From a virus: a DNA stretch of 24,472 nucleotides. The stretch is taken from positions 1 through 24,472 of IMG/VR virus record IMGVR_UViG_3300003937_000028. One strand, 5' to 3'. Below the pieces are notes generated by a model. It was not told the DNA's origin. It was given only the letters and a program-made list of their open reading frames with translations, and ran no database searches. Position 1 is the first letter of the stretch, and each line of letters starts with the position of its first letter. Of this stretch, positions 284-19,061 are shown one piece after another. The translations under genes were made by a program, and so were the position numbers.

Positions 284-457
284 ATGGCAGAAGAGGAGAA
301 TATGTCTCTTTCTCAGCATATTGAAGAGACAGAAAAGGAAATGAAAGTGCTAAAGAAAGAGATAAAACGTCTTGAAGATGTAGTAGATAAATTCAAGAAA
401 TATCACAATAATTGGCGCAATTATAAATCTCAACTTGGTTTAGGTGATGAAGACTGA
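284..457 (+). CDS. Small coiled-coil protein, 57 aa
   Basis: ATG at 284 follows AAAGGAAAGG (purine-rich ribosome-binding site) 12 bases after the previous stop. The 57-residue product is dominated by charged heptad-like helix (residues about 10-40, alternating Glu/Lys with Leu, Ile and Val at core positions), followed by an aromatic, basic patch (YHNNWRNYK). It has no membrane segment and no known family. Its 3' end overlaps the next gene by about 11 bases, so the two are translationally coupled. It could be a soluble partner of the membrane proteins encoded downstream; this is inferred from gene order. Confidence 0.65.
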   Translation: MAEEENMSLSQHIEETEKEMKVLKKEIKRLEDVVDKFKKYHNNWRNYKSQLGLGDED

Positions 458-641
458 TGATGACCCGGGGAAACTGGAACTGTCCTTACGAATACTTGGC
501 AACGAGATTTTAGGGTTTAAGATGATGGTAGATGATTTCAAAATGAAATGGATGTTAGTAGGAATAATGGCTATTGGTGTCTTAGCATACATTATGGTAT
601 CATTCGGACCTCAACTTATGGAGACATTCAATGTCTCATAA
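447..641 (+). CDS. Small single-pass membrane protein, 64 aa
   Basis: The start is ATG 447 (GTG 444 is an alternative one codon earlier), inside the end of the coiled-coil gene in another frame. The N-terminal half is charged and cytoplasmic-looking (DDDPGKLELS). A hydrophobic helix of about 20 residues (WMLVGIMAIGVLAYIMVSFG) sits at roughly residues 33-52, followed by a short tail. The basic residues (FKMKW) before the helix predict an N-in orientation. It lies 24 bases upstream of the iron-permease-like gene in the same operon, so a role as an accessory subunit or membrane tether is plausible but unproven. No family recognised. Confidence 0.6.
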   Translation: MKTDDDPGKLELSLRILGNEILGFKMMVDDFKMKWMLVGIMAIGVLAYIMVSFGPQLMETFNVS

Positions 642-665
642 TTTTAACGAAGCAGAAGGAAAAAA

Positions 666-1322
666 ATGGAAAATTTAGTTATAACACCACTACTCACATC
701 TCTCTTTATAATATTGAGAGAGGGGTTCGAGGCGATGTTAATAGTGATGTTAATATTCACATATCTAGGCCGATTTAATCTAGGACACACCAAAAGAGTG
801 TGGGTCTATGGAGGAATCTTCGCAGGAATACTTGGAAGTATTGCCGTAGCATTGGGATTCAAATTCATAGCAGGACTTACACACGCTCACGAAGAATACT
901 TTGAATCAGTTTGTATGCTTCTAGCATCTGGAGTATTGGGCTATCTAGCCTTCTGGTGCCACGGAGCAAAGAATCACTTTGAAGAAGATATACAGAGTAG
1001 ACTATACGCTCCTTCAATATCTATCGCTTCATCATTAGCGTTATCTTTCGCTGTTATGATAGCAATACTTAGGGAAGGATTCGAGATAGTCTTGTTTTAC
1101 GCGGCTCTATTGTCATCTGCATCCGCAGATAATCTATCAATAGTAGTCGGGGGCATTGTAGGACTTGTCGGCTTATTAGTAGCCTATAATATGCTGAGAA
1201 AAGGTATCGATAAAGTGCCTACCAAACAAGTCTTTTTATACAGTAAATATTTCTTTATCGCACTTGCGCTATATTTCGCATATGGTGGAATCAATGAATT
1301 GATTGAATTAGCGCATCATTAA
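666..1322 (+). CDS. FTR1/EfeU-family iron permease-like membrane protein
   Basis: The 218-residue polytopic membrane protein has REGFE at residues 18-22 (first membrane segment) and again at 136-140 (fourth segment). Two REXXE motifs in these positions are the hallmark of the FTR1 / EfeU high-affinity iron permeases, where the Glu and Arg side chains pass ferric iron through the inner membrane. About six or seven hydrophobic segments are visible; a His/Glu-rich loop (HAHEE, 73-77) follows the second and an acidic loop (HFEED, 104-108) precedes the fourth, both candidate metal sites. It is shorter than many cellular FTR1 proteins (about 250-300 aa). AGAAGGA gives a good ribosome-binding site. 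Neighbours are small membrane or exported proteins. Iron as the substrate is inferred from the family; another cation is possible. It is not part of the T4 core and looks like an accessory metabolic gene. Confidence 0.85.
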   Translation: MENLVITPLLTSLFIILREGFEAMLIVMLIFTYLGRFNLGHTKRVWVYGGIFAGILGSIAVALGFKFIAGLTHAHEEYFESVCMLLASGVLGYLAFWCHGAKNHFEEDIQSRLYAPSISIASSLALSFAVMIAILREGFEIVLFYAALLSSASADNLSIVVGGIVGLVGLLVAYNMLRKGIDKVPTKQVFLYSKYFFIALALYFAYGGINELIELAHH

Positions 1323-1643
1323 ATGAGGCTAAAAATTATGTCAGTTATTGTTGGTATTTTAATAGCATTTGGAGTATCATATCACGTATTTCCAGAAGCA
1401 TACGACACAACACCGTATGCTCTGGAGTCAAAACACGACACTTTAGTAGAGTGTCAAACAGCAAAGTCGAACTCCTTCACAATGAAGAAAGATGGCACGG
1501 TCATCAAGAATGGATTGACAGGGGTTTGTGTCGGAACGGATTTGTACTTGAAAACCGATAAAGTTCCAGTAGGAAAGACAGTGAAGCGAGAGTACACAGA
1601 ATGTGATTTTTGGGCAGGATGTTTCTTTGATTTCAGAGGTTAA
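1323..1643 (+). CDS. Exported or membrane-anchored small protein, cysteine-containing
   Basis: Starts at ATG 1323 immediately after the permease stop (TAA-ATG), suggesting coupled translation. ATG 1338 is an alternative with GAGG 9 bases upstream; the longer form keeps the basic MRLK leader. Residues about 5-20 (SVIVGILIAFGVSY) form a signal peptide or signal anchor. The rest (about 85 residues) is polar with four cysteines (in VECQ, GVCV, TECD and GCFF), which suits an oxidised periplasmic domain with two disulfides. There is no lipobox, so a signal anchor is more likely than a lipoprotein. It could be a periplasmic partner of the permease, analogous in position only to the extra subunits of Efe systems; it has no recognised homology to EfeO or EfeB. 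Confidence 0.65.
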   Translation: MRLKIMSVIVGILIAFGVSYHVFPEAYDTTPYALESKHDTLVECQTAKSNSFTMKKDGTVIKNGLTGVCVGTDLYLKTDKVPVGKTVKREYTECDFWAGCFFDFRG

Positions 1644-3945: not shown

Positions 3946-4590
3946 ATGAAAGATTTGCTCAAACGAGTGAAAACCCAGATGGTAGGGCAGGCACTCTATG
4001 CTGACGAAATCCAAGCAATATTCCAAGAAGAACTTGACCCACTCGGAGTCGAGGTTACTACTCACCCATATGGAGATGATATCGGAGCCAACCAGATTAC
4101 GGCAAATGGTTATTTCGATGAAACTGAATTAGAGATGGAAGACCCTCTAATCGAAGCAGTCCTTGTAGATATTGAACTTGTTCTCATATTAAACAATGAA
4201 GACAGACCCATAACTATAAATAATAAGGATTGGAAGTTTCTTGAACATCAAGTAACTCAAACACTTGAACACGAAATGATTCATAGAGAACAGGCTAAAA
4301 AGCGTATAGGAGCAAACTATATGCCGATATATAACCAACATATGGACGAAGAGCAAAAGCGAATTGTCTATCTTAGTGACCCTGATGAAATTGATGCTTA
4401 TGCAAATGATGTAGCATTAGATTTGTTATTACACTATACGTATATGGGTGCTTATGCCAGACTGAGAGAATACAAACAAATTAGACAGGAAGAAAGCCCT
4501 ATCTTTTGTGAGTATGTCGACACGTTTGGTTGGAATAGTGAGACTGTTCATATTCTTGTTAAGAAAGCATTAAAACGATTGGAGACGTAG
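3946..4590 (+). CDS. HExxH zinc-metallopeptidase-like protein
   Basis: I placed the start at ATG 3946 (AAAGGA at 3935-3940); ATG 3913 is in frame but coincides with the predicted transcription start. The 214-aa product carries HEMIH at residues 109-113, the HExxH zinc-binding and catalytic motif of metallopeptidases, inside a helix (TQTLEHEMIHREQ). About 35 residues on, YLSDPDEIDAYA offers acidic residues for a third zinc ligand. The layout of an acidic N-terminal half, HExxH, then D/E-rich helix resembles small phage or bacterial HExxH proteins of unknown substrate. No signal peptide or membrane segment is seen, so it acts inside the host cell. Early promoters point to takeover rather than virion maturation. 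Proteolysis is inferred from the motif only. Confidence 0.7.
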   Translation: MKDLLKRVKTQMVGQALYADEIQAIFQEELDPLGVEVTTHPYGDDIGANQITANGYFDETELEMEDPLIEAVLVDIELVLILNNEDRPITINNKDWKFLEHQVTQTLEHEMIHREQAKKRIGANYMPIYNQHMDEEQKRIVYLSDPDEIDAYANDVALDLLLHYTYMGAYARLREYKQIRQEESPIFCEYVDTFGWNSETVHILVKKALKRLET

Positions 4591-4591
4591 T

Positions 4592-4795
4592 ATGAGCAAT
4601 ACCTCAAAAGATAAATTTTATAGCCAGTGTGTGGCGCAGACTCCTTGTGTTGGAAGAGACCAAATCCAATGCAAGATGAATGAAAGCCAGACTGACTGTG
4701 TAACCTGTAAACGCACATTAGCAGAAATCAAAGGTTGGGAGACTATGCCCTTTGAAGAAAGAGAAGTTATTTGTAAAGAATTGCTTGACAGATAG
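4592..4795 (+). CDS. DUF1289-like small cysteine-rich protein
   Basis: ATG 4592 follows GGAG by seven bases, right behind the HExxH gene. The 67-aa product shows the DUF1289 pattern: TPCVG near residue 17, a cysteine at QIQCKM, then CVTCKRTLAEIKGWETM (residues about 36-52) and a terminal helix with EREV. Bacterial DUF1289 proteins (YdhL type) are small, four-cysteine proteins thought to bind zinc or an iron-sulfur cluster; their role is not established. An extra N-terminal cysteine (SQCVAQ) is present. Promoter P5 overlaps its 3' end: the -35 hexamer is inside the last codons. Confidence 0.7.
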   Translation: MSNTSKDKFYSQCVAQTPCVGRDQIQCKMNESQTDCVTCKRTLAEIKGWETMPFEEREVICKELLDR

Positions 4796-4813
4796 GCTTC
4801 TTTCTGTTATAAT
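4785..4813 (+). promoter_or_regulatory. Sigma70-type promoter P5 before the gene 33 counterpart
   Basis: TTGACA 4785-4790, 17 bases, TATAAT 4808-4813, with TGT upstream of the -10 (extended). Predicted start is about 4820, and the ribosome-binding site AAGGAA lies at 4825-4830. It shares GCTTGACAGAT and CTGTTATAAT with P3. It drives the late-transcription coactivator and helicase-loader genes. Confidence 0.85.
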
Positions 4814-4840
4814 AGTTGTAATTTAAGGAAAAAAGAAAGT

Positions 4841-5071
4841 ATGAGAAAAGTGAATAAGCAACAGGCATTCCAATTAATAATTGAGGAGAGAATGCAGGCA
4901 GGAGTTACTTATATTGATGCGATGGTAGAATATATGGTTGAACATCAACTAGAGTCAAAGCAAGTAGCCAAACTTATATCACCCGCATTCAGACTAAAGA
5001 TTGAATCAGAAGCAATAGCGAATAACCAGATTAAGGATGATGATGAAAAAGGAAGTGTTCTTCCATTGTGA
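4841..5071 (+). CDS. 33: Late transcription coactivator, T4 gp33-like
   Basis: The 76-aa product matches the core of T4 gp33 from memory: VTYIDAMVEYM corresponds to T4 MSYLEATTAFL, QVAKLISP to QFAKFIP, and IESEAIANNQI to IQSEAIDENLL. The C-terminus ends in a short hydrophobic tail (SVLPL), the position where gp33 contacts the sliding clamp gp45. gp33 bridges host RNA polymerase beta-flap and the clamp, allowing gp55-directed late transcription. T4 gp33 is 112 aa; the extra N-terminal part is missing here. Placement directly before the gp59 gene repeats the T4 order 33-59-32. Late-promoter motifs at 14492-14505 and 21670-21677 fit its job. Confidence 0.85.
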   Translation: MRKVNKQQAFQLIIEERMQAGVTYIDAMVEYMVEHQLESKQVAKLISPAFRLKIESEAIANNQIKDDDEKGSVLPL

Positions 5072-6994: not shown

Positions 6995-7210
6995 ATGATT
7001 GGGACTATCCACACAGACGAAGAAATAGTCGTAAAAATTAAAGCATTAACAGACGATTGCAAGGAAATAAACCGAATAAATAAGGTTATGAGAAAACGAC
7101 CTAAATATACGGAATCGATAATTGATTATAAGATTGAATCGATGTATGCCCTAGCAATGGAATTAGACCGTGAAATTAACCCAATAAATCTTGAAGGAGA
7201 TGATGTATGA
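6995..7210 (+). CDS. Small hypothetical helical protein, 71 aa
   Basis: ATG 6995 lies about 35 bases after the predicted P6 start, with GGAG at 6981-6984. The product is soluble, mostly helical and mixed-charge (DDCKEINRINKVMRKRPKY, then YKIESMYALAMELDREI), a pattern suited to a small helical hairpin or coiled-coil dimer. No family is recognised. Its stop overlaps the next start (ATGA), so the two small proteins are made together. Confidence 0.7.
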   Translation: MIGTIHTDEEIVVKIKALTDDCKEINRINKVMRKRPKYTESIIDYKIESMYALAMELDREINPINLEGDDV

Positions 7211-7503
7211 CAGATGAAGCAAAAAGCGAAGTACGAGTAAATACCGTACGCATTGATGGAAATGATTATGATGTGGAGACCTTGCCTTCAGTGGCTAAGA
7301 TTGCCATTGAGCATTTGGTTTCTATCGACAAAGAAGTTCAGCGACTTGAAATGGCAAGAGCAGGTTTTGCTCAAGCGATTAAAGCCGTTATGGATGGGGA
7401 TGAAGCACCCGACCCAGTGAGTGGAGCAAAAGTTGATGCACCTGCACCAACCCCAGAGCCACTTAAAGTAGTTCCAGAAGCAAAGAAAACTTCGGTGAAC
7501 TAA
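7207..7503 (+). CDS. DUF6447-like small protein with Pro-rich tail
   Basis: ATG 7207 is coupled to the previous gene (ATGA) and has GAAGGAGATG upstream. The N-terminal part, VRIDGNDYDVETLPSVAK (residues about 14-31) followed by a helix IEHLVSIDKEVQRLEMARA, resembles the short DUF6447 proteins (a beta hairpin IDGxxYD and one long helix), a family without assigned role. After residue 63 the chain turns into an acidic, Pro/Ala-rich disordered tail. It precedes the gene 32 leader, so a link to replication is possible but unsupported. Confidence 0.6.
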   Translation: MTDEAKSEVRVNTVRIDGNDYDVETLPSVAKIAIEHLVSIDKEVQRLEMARAGFAQAIKAVMDGDEAPDPVSGAKVDAPAPTPEPLKVVPEAKKTSVN

Positions 7504-7525
7504 TGGTTCAAAGTTTCGTACAACG

Positions 7526-7584
7526 GGTAAGTGGACACATAGTGTGTTCACACCTTAAATCTAATATAAAACAGGAGAAACAAT
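7526..7584 (+). promoter_or_regulatory. Structured leader of gene 32, candidate gp32 autoregulatory site
   Basis: A nine-pair hairpin (7531-7539 with 7543-7551, one G-U pair, three-base loop TAG) lies 33 bases before the gene 32 start. It is followed by an A/T-rich, unstructured stretch (TTAAATCTAATATAAAA) carrying the ribosome-binding site CAGGAG. GGT at 7526-7528 could add pairs with ACC at 7552-7554 across a bulge. In T4, gp32 represses its own translation by nucleating on a pseudoknot upstream of an A/U-rich initiation region; the arrangement here is similar. A pseudoknot partner is not obvious by eye. No consensus promoter is seen here. Confidence 0.5.
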
Positions 7585-8490
7585 ATGAGTTTTGCCGCTC
7601 TTAAAAAGCGTTCTAAATCTAAAAAGGACGTAGAATCAATGATGGACAAACTTTCGCAAGCCTCTGGTGGCACGAAAGCATCATACGTAGACGACCGATA
7701 CTGGAAGTTGGAACGTGACAAATCAAGCAATGGATATGCTATTATTCGTTTTCTGGACTCTCCAGTAAACGAGGACTTTCCATTCGTGAAGATTTACAGT
7801 CACGGCTTCAAGGGTAAAGGTGGATGGTACATTGAGAATTCTCTCACAACTATTGGTAAGCAAGACCCAGTGTCTGAAGCCAATTCTGAGTTGTGGAATT
7901 CTGGTATCGACTCGAACAAGCAGATTGCAAGGGATAGGAAGCGTAGGCTTCAGTATATCTCGAACATCTATGTTGTTCAAGATTCCGCACATCCAGAAAA
8001 TGAAGGGAAAGTATTTCTCTTCAAATATGGGAAGTCTATTTTCGATATGATACAAGCCGCAGGTGCGCCTGAGTTTGAAGATGAGACACCAGTCAACGTC
8101 TTTAATCTATTCAGTGGAGCGAACTTCAAGTTGAAGGCTCGCAAAGCAGACGGCTTCGTGAAGTATGATAAGTCTGGATTCGATGAACCATCTCAGTGGT
8201 TGGAGTCTGAAGATGAAATGGAGACGTTGTATAACGGCCTCTATTCTTTGACGGCTGAAATTGCTGAAGACCAGTTCAAATCTTATGATGAGTTGAAGAA
8301 GAAGTTTAACCGTACTATCGGTGCAACTACTTCGGATACGTCTTCTTTCACTGCTGAATCAGTATCAGCACCTACTCGAAATGTAGCGGATATCGCATCC
8401 TCTGCGGCGAGTGGAGATGACATCCCAATCGGAGATGTTCCAGAGGAAGATGACACTATGAGTTATTTCTCGAAACTAGCAGAAGCATAG
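7585..8490 (+). CDS. 32: Single-stranded DNA-binding protein, T4 gp32-like
   Basis: The 301-aa product (same length as T4 gp32) has the basic N-terminal B domain (KKRSKSKK, residues 7-14) used for cooperative binding. The core OB-fold region has GYAIIRFL (50-57) and YSHGFKGKGGWYIENSL (71-87). A Ser-rich linker and an acidic C-terminal tail (DVPEEDDTMSYFSKLAEA) contact partners such as gp59. It coats single-stranded DNA in replication, recombination and repair. The protein contains no cysteine: only the zinc ligand equivalent to His64 (His73) remains, where T4 has three Cys, so the T4 zinc site is lost. ATG 7585 has CAGGAG upstream. A strong terminator follows 21 bases after the stop. Confidence 0.93.
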   Translation: MSFAALKKRSKSKKDVESMMDKLSQASGGTKASYVDDRYWKLERDKSSNGYAIIRFLDSPVNEDFPFVKIYSHGFKGKGGWYIENSLTTIGKQDPVSEANSELWNSGIDSNKQIARDRKRRLQYISNIYVVQDSAHPENEGKVFLFKYGKSIFDMIQAAGAPEFEDETPVNVFNLFSGANFKLKARKADGFVKYDKSGFDEPSQWLESEDEMETLYNGLYSLTAEIAEDQFKSYDELKKKFNRTIGATTSDTSSFTAESVSAPTRNVADIASSAASGDDIPIGDVPEEDDTMSYFSKLAEA

Positions 8491-18344: not shown

Positions 18345-19061
18345 ATGTTTGAAGTGAATCCTTCTATGAAAATAGAGGTTATTACTGGAATTAAAGGAAG
18401 AAATATAGTTATTATTGACGATTTTTTCAAGAACCCAGATGAGATTAGAGAACGAGCAATGAATCTCAACTATACTAGTGACCCAGAAGTGACGGGTGGA
18501 TTGCCCGGGACAAGAGGAGTTGATGAAGACCCTGAGGTAAAAGAGAAATTAAAAAAGATTTATTCGACTCTTTGTAACTTATACTTCCCTTATAGAGAAG
18601 GGATTAATGAGAAGGACTTTAATGATAATTGGGATAATCAAGCGTTTATGATTAACTCAATTAATGATGAGACACTAAAGGAGAACCCATTAGGGATATT
18701 ACCTCATCAAGATTGGTGGGAGAACGATGAATCTACATTCCAATTTGGGAGTGTAATTTATTTAAATAAAGACAAGGAGTGTGCAGGTGGAACTAGATTT
18801 TACAGTCATTTTGAACGGATATCGATTCCAGAGGATTGGCAACCACAATGGGTAATAGATATTCCTCCAGAAGTACGACATATAAAGTTTCAACATATTT
18901 ACACACGGATACAGGAAGGAAATCCGTACAGAGTTGAATATCAGGCGAATATGAAATATAACAGAATGGTATTATATGAAGCAGATATTCTTCACGGACA
19001 GGAAGTCGATATAGGACAGTTTGAAAAATATAACAGAATCAATCAAGTATTGTTTATGTAG
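18345..19061 (+). CDS. DUF6445-like Fe(II)/2-oxoglutarate oxygenase-type protein
   Basis: 238 aa, AGGAG ribosome-binding site, inserted between the spike and the large structural protein genes. The N-terminus IVIIDDFFKNPDEIRERAM and PGTRG resemble DUF6445/prolyl-hydroxylase-like proteins. H121-x-D123 (LPHQDWW), then VIYLN and GGTRFYSHF, H217 (ADILHGQ) and R231 give the HxD...H...R set that binds Fe(II) and 2-oxoglutarate in the double-stranded beta-helix fold. The substrate is unknown. T4 has no such gene in its baseplate operon; marine T4-like phages often encode 2OG oxygenases. It could modify a virion protein (its operon neighbours) or a host target. Confidence 0.75.
   Translation: MFEVNPSMKIEVITGIKGRNIVIIDDFFKNPDEIRERAMNLNYTSDPEVTGGLPGTRGVDEDPEVKEKLKKIYSTLCNLYFPYREGINEKDFNDNWDNQAFMINSINDETLKENPLGILPHQDWWENDESTFQFGSVIYLNKDKECAGGTRFYSHFERISIPEDWQPQWVIDIPPEVRHIKFQHIYTRIQEGNPYRVEYQANMKYNRMVLYEADILHGQEVDIGQFEKYNRINQVLFM

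Follow-up and report, generated by a model that had tools for sequence, protein, structure and literature searches.

The left end of the IMG/VR virus record IMGVR_UViG_3300003937_000028 raises the question of whether a phage can carry an iron importer of its own and, if so, with which partner proteins, under what control and to what end. Large parts of the ocean are poor in iron, and the case for phages affecting host iron has so far been made mainly from changes in host expression and from the iron in phage tails. The window analysed here is the whole stretch of 24,472 nt, and its first 2 kb contain the following features.

16–44, + strand: consensus sigma-70 promoter (TTGACA-N17-TATAAT), 12/12 match, with TG before the -10 element
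71–271, + strand: 66-aa ORF, first gene after the promoter, no family match (Pfam, PHROGs)
284–457, + strand: 57-aa charged coiled-coil protein, weak coiled-coil-type matches only
444–641, + strand: 64/65-aa single-pass membrane protein of a family common in marine phages, independent of FTR1
666–1322, + strand: compact six-helix FTR1-family iron permease, 218 aa (Pfam profile, motifs, alignment, model)
1323–1643, + strand: small protein, exported or anchored in the membrane, with four conserved Cys; in contig L132 a homologue comes directly after FTR1
1668–1985, + strand: 105-aa zinc-ribbon-like protein (CPxC...CxxC), directly downstream of the Cys ORF

A compact FTR1-family permease

The ORF at 666–1322 encodes an FTR1-family permease, as the initial annotation had proposed from two REGFE motifs, and the coiled-coil, membrane (TM), FTR1 and Cys ORFs lie where it placed them, all on the + strand. 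The Pfam FTR1 profile (PF03239) matches the ORF at E=1.8e-23 (83.7 bits against a cut-off of 25.3), a score far too high for a chance REGFE motif, and a six-frame search of the window recovers the same ORF. The two motifs lie at residues 18–22 (TM1) and 136–140 (TM4), and are accompanied by HAHEE-FE at 73–80 and WCH at 97–99. Comparable PF03239 scores are obtained for the relative in L132 (90.5 bits) and for SAR11 homologues (88–93 bits). R18, E19, E22, E80, R136, E137, G138, E140 and three other residues are invariant in an alignment that includes distant bacterial FTR1.

EfeU, a protein of 276 residues with seven TM helices (a number also described for Ftr1p), is accompanied by EfeO and EfeB (PMC9174327). 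With EfeU of the EfeUOB system (E. coli; YwbL in B. subtilis) the phage protein shares the FTR1 core, the RExxE motifs in TM1 and TM4 and the E-LFEG motif, but it has six helices, and EfeO was not found with it. Aligned to full-length FTR1, the phage and SAR11 forms end after TM6, without loop 6–7 and TM7, and the AlphaFold2 model of the window protein likewise has six helices (pLDDT 81.6). The cut-offs of the EfeU equivalog NF041756 (85.3 vs 255 bits) and of TIGR00145 (95 vs 303.8 bits) are not reached. Since the phage protein, like its SAR11 homologues, has six rather than the seven TM helices expected of the family, it is classed as a compact variant of PF03239. HxHEE and WCH/FCH are additions of the compact clade, not typical of other FTR1, and may be metal ligands. 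Fold searches of the PDB and BFVD gave no significant structural relative, and a sequence search of the PDB gave none either. The compact form poses the question of how small a working FTR1 can be.

Distribution among viruses

Homologues of the permease occur on 19 other viral contigs, 17 of which were found in one viral-contig scan; L083, which is more distant, and L132, reached via its neighbouring TM protein, complete the set. Counting the window there are 13 distinct sequences, with 37–100% identity to the window protein. Pairwise dN/dS is about 0.06–0.25 (0.06–0.24 in pairs with unsaturated dS; the most distant pairs are saturated), indicating purifying selection and ruling out a pseudogene. 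No relative was found in PHROGs, and tblastn against the cultured phages of INPHARED gave no true one; unannotated fragments there labelled 'Listeria/Staphylococcus phage', with about 30% identity, are most likely host DNA. The open-access literature yielded no report of a phage-encoded FTR1 or EfeU, which leaves the absence of such reports unproven.

A near-identical second contig (L002) matches the first 8,571 nt of the window at 99.9%, and the diverged L132 repeats the gene order of the FTR1 block, so that the locus is not an assembly accident. The window also encodes the T4-type proteins gp59, gp32 and a gp6 baseplate wedge protein, as well as the thymidylate synthase ThyX, and in L017 the permease gene sits between ORFs resembling DNA polymerase and sliding clamp (read by eye). 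Bacterial contamination is ruled out by the surrounding phage genes and by the recurrence of the permease in several phage lineages. With true phage genes on both sides, an intact reading frame and purifying selection acting on it, the gene shows features expected of an auxiliary metabolic gene. The baseplate protein of the window favours no particular host group, being equally distant from those of pelagiphages, cyanophages and OM43 phages.

Neighbouring genes

The initial annotation considered a new minimal permease assembly possible, as none of the neighbours resembled EfeO or EfeB. EfeO (PF09375) was indeed found in none of 18 viral records, all of them fragment contigs, but its absence is not peculiar to phages, as it was also found in 0 of 10 FTR1-bearing SAR11 genomes. 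The cFtr1-P19, FetMP and FtrABCD systems have an FTR1-type permease as in the phage; their partners were not found on the phage contigs, with no P19 (PF10634) in 19 records (again fragment contigs) and no cupredoxin (PF13473), apart from one sub-threshold cupredoxin-like stretch in a 1196-aa ORF of the L132 contig.

A dedicated phage complex in which FTR1 is joined by the coiled-coil, TM and Cys proteins, and perhaps by the zinc-ribbon protein, and in which the Cys protein takes the place of EfeO, P19 or a ferroxidase, would account for the synteny of the window with the diverged L132, where the order coiled-coil, TM, FTR1, Cys, zinc ribbon and cyclic-nucleotide-binding (cNMP) protein is the same. 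The L132 contig has a similar coiled-coil protein at the same place, and its Cys protein is 47% identical to that of the window, with all four Cys kept; this protein has been seen solely with FTR1, in these two lineages. However, the two phages are related, and the shared order may reflect ancestry. The related phages L003–L006, which otherwise have most genes in common with the window, keep FTR1 without the coiled-coil, TM and Cys neighbours, as do all other FTR1 phages. At least 116 relatives of the TM protein were found in viruses, and among the 80 loci kept, FTR1 occurs in the fetched DNA only in the twin contig and L132, so that an FTR1-specific role is rejected for this widespread family. 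The zinc-ribbon protein is a conserved neighbour downstream of FTR1 in 10 viral records and occurs without it too; in FTR1-free phages (L226–L241) it comes after a 2OG oxygenase and before a ClpP-like ORF. Such a complex thus appears unlikely. Of the two claims of the initial annotation, that of a missing EfeO-like partner holds, and that of a novel four-part assembly is weakly supported. The Cys protein is the only remaining candidate partner, and at most a possible one.

Some further properties of these neighbours may be recorded. The TM ORF more likely starts at ATG 447 than at GTG 444, and the Cys ORF probably at ATG 1338, which has the better Shine-Dalgarno sequence and is the Met from which the L132 homologue aligns. 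The TM family (62–65 aa, consensus GKLELSLRILGNEIIGFKMVVDDFKMKWMLLGLVAIGAISWIMVQFGPQLMETFSG; L131–L210) is unusually well conserved for a small phage protein and occurs in at least four gene contexts; conservation is highest in the amphipathic stretch that precedes the TM helix. Its neighbours elsewhere are ORFs that by motif resemble gp4, NrdB, IscU and IscA, and neither INPHARED nor PHROGs contained a match. The model of the zinc-ribbon protein (pLDDT 72.9) gave no fold match. Next in the window is a stand-alone cyclic-nucleotide-binding domain protein (1989–2318, E=4.8e-16), which is kept in L132 and is unusual in a phage.

Relationship to SAR11 FTR1

The nearest genomic relatives of the phage permease all belong to SAR11 (41–50% identity), the one exception being a partial phage-like contig in an archaeal bin; other bacteria reach at most 33%, in a scan built on short conserved peptides, which could have passed over homologues of intermediate similarity in other groups. 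The exception (L034, from a Pacearchaeota MAG) has FTR1 beside a DnaB-helicase-like ORF and is probably a misbinned phage contig. A profile of the phage sequences searched against 385 Alphaproteobacteria scored 251–259 bits in SAR11 and at most 140 in others.

A first tree unites phage and SAR11 FTR1 in one clade (support 99/99), with SAR11 as one group (99/100), and in a second tree the joint clade is supported at 93/95. The best tree nests SAR11 FTR1 among the phages, but the phages as a single clade are not rejected (p-AU 0.27), so the tree does not settle which side was donor and which recipient. Only 7 of 197 Pelagibacterales genomes contain the gene, in agreement with published surveys (PMC4771312, PMC12636525). 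The stand-alone FTR1 of SAR11 (e.g. HIMB058) shares the compact six-TM form and the WCH/FCH motif with the phage proteins, and again no EfeO was found in the genomes that carry it. In contrast to the phage copies, which have no Fur box, the SAR11 genes are chromosomal and often stand behind Fur boxes; the window gene lies in a phage operon behind a consensus sigma-70 promoter.

A shared clade raises the question of exchange of uptake-system genes between phages and abundant bacteria. More specifically, marine T4-like phages and SAR11 might share a distinct six-helix subfamily that needs neither EfeO nor EfeB nor a ferroxidase, the patchy SAR11 copies being phage-derived and having come under Fur control later. 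We regard this scenario as rather doubtful; if it were true, the most abundant heterotrophs of the ocean would owe an iron-uptake gene to viruses. In one freshwater SAR11 contig, a rubrerythrin-VIT1 fusion (MbfA-like) directly follows FTR1 (L031, 5690–6667).

Promoter and Fur control

The promoter at 16–44 is likely the start of the transcript that carries FTR1. It is one of six perfect sigma-70 sites (12/12, 17-nt spacer) on the + strand of the window, at 16, 3150, 3761, 3878, 4785 and 6927, where 0.003 would be expected. Many perfect sites are likewise present in L003, L005 and L132. Such a promoter stands upstream of FTR1 in the window, L002, L132, L003/L004 and L005, and in none of L007 and L010–L015.

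Fur-box-like sites, defined as having at most one mismatch to TGATAATNATTATCA, were scanned for in 146 kb of SAR11 DNA, and 11 of the 12 sites found lie within 150 nt upstream of FTR1. They precede the gene at 8 of 17 loci, some of which are near-copies, and the scan gave no clear Fur box at 7 of the 17 SAR11-type loci. Fur boxes before SAR11 FTR1 have been reported independently (PMC4771312). At the same threshold there is none upstream of any phage FTR1 and none in the window. The phage gene may therefore escape Fur and be transcribed early; because L007 and L010–L015 lack a perfect promoter, the case for early expression free of Fur is limited to the window and the phages closest to it, and the proposal is best supported for the window's own lineage. 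An importer without a Fur operator would, if this is true, give a phage a direct genetic means to raise host iron uptake.

Iron context and proposed role

That iron matters to this virus had been suggested from an Fe(II)-dependent oxygenase and a PAAR tip in the window, but both genes are commonplace in marine T4-like phages and say little on this point. The oxygenase itself is only partly confirmed: the ORF at 18345–19061 matches DUF6445 (E=1.6e-13), 2OG-FeII_Oxy_3 only at E=0.007, and also the PHROG 'minor coat protein' (E=4e-33). The neighbours of FTR1 in other phages and in freshwater SAR11, by contrast, point to iron handling. Nfu and SufT directly follow it in L010–L015, a ferredoxin lies just upstream in L016, and the L083 contig, with its divergent FTR1, encodes a heme oxygenase and SufT (4274–4861 and 7158–7640). 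Phage genes for Fe-S assembly and heme oxygenase are known as auxiliary genes, and they too bring host-like iron handling into marine phages; these act on intracellular iron, whereas the phage FTR1 would be an importer. A pelagiphage without FTR1 is reported to upregulate the host iron transporters afuABC (PMC12753301), which makes a demand for iron during infection plausible.

Phage membrane proteins often act in superinfection exclusion, receptor change or membrane remodelling, and the place of FTR1 beside small membrane proteins, in an operon that is probably early, would suit a role of that kind instead of iron supply. Against it stand the RExxE residues, every one of them conserved under purifying selection in the 13 sequences, and the Fe-S genes beside FTR1 in other lineages; this alternative is very improbable. 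Nothing observed here points to the altered receptor that the initial annotation had also considered. FTR1 relatives can also move other divalent metals. Transport of another metal (e.g. Mn or Zn), or export of iron against oxidative stress, would fit the extra His and Cys residues (HxHEE, WCH) of the compact clade, which are not typical of other FTR1, and the rubrerythrin-VIT1 protein beside one SAR11 gene. However, the Fur boxes before the nearest SAR11 genes (also in PMC4771312) indicate import under iron shortage, and the Fe-S neighbours again speak for iron; we consider this possibility to be small. Of the proposal that the phage raises host iron uptake, the FTR1/EfeU-family permease is established, and iron is probably its substrate.

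The phage FTR1 is real and conserved and belongs to a compact subfamily that SAR11 has too; it is most likely an auxiliary iron importer, and not a new kind of system. We infer transport, its metal and direction, the timing of expression and the host from the comparisons above. Taken as a whole, the model in which an auxiliary metabolic gene lets an uncultured marine T4-like phage add to its host's iron import at an early stage of infection, independently of Fur, is a fairly likely one. The host RNA polymerase would transcribe the gene early from the consensus sigma-70 promoter, and with no Fur operator present, import would be on whether or not host Fur would repress. The product would sit in the inner membrane of a Gram-negative host as a minimal permease built of two three-helix halves, each beginning with its RExxE helix. 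Iron would be taken from the periplasm, with delivery by host binding proteins or reductases, as is presumed to happen with the stand-alone permease of SAR11, and would serve the needs of infection in Fe-S proteins, ribonucleotide reductase, 2OG/Fe(II) oxygenases and respiration.

A few other genes near FTR1 in these phages may be mentioned. L010–L015 also have a ClpS gene nearby, and an SbmA/BacA-like peptide transporter lies just upstream of FTR1 in L011 (E=1.8e-133), with a similar ORF in L013. In L007 (9264–12112) a fatty acid desaturase lies beside the permease gene, and past the zinc-ribbon protein there is a radical SAM protein with a zinc ribbon of the HMPTM type.
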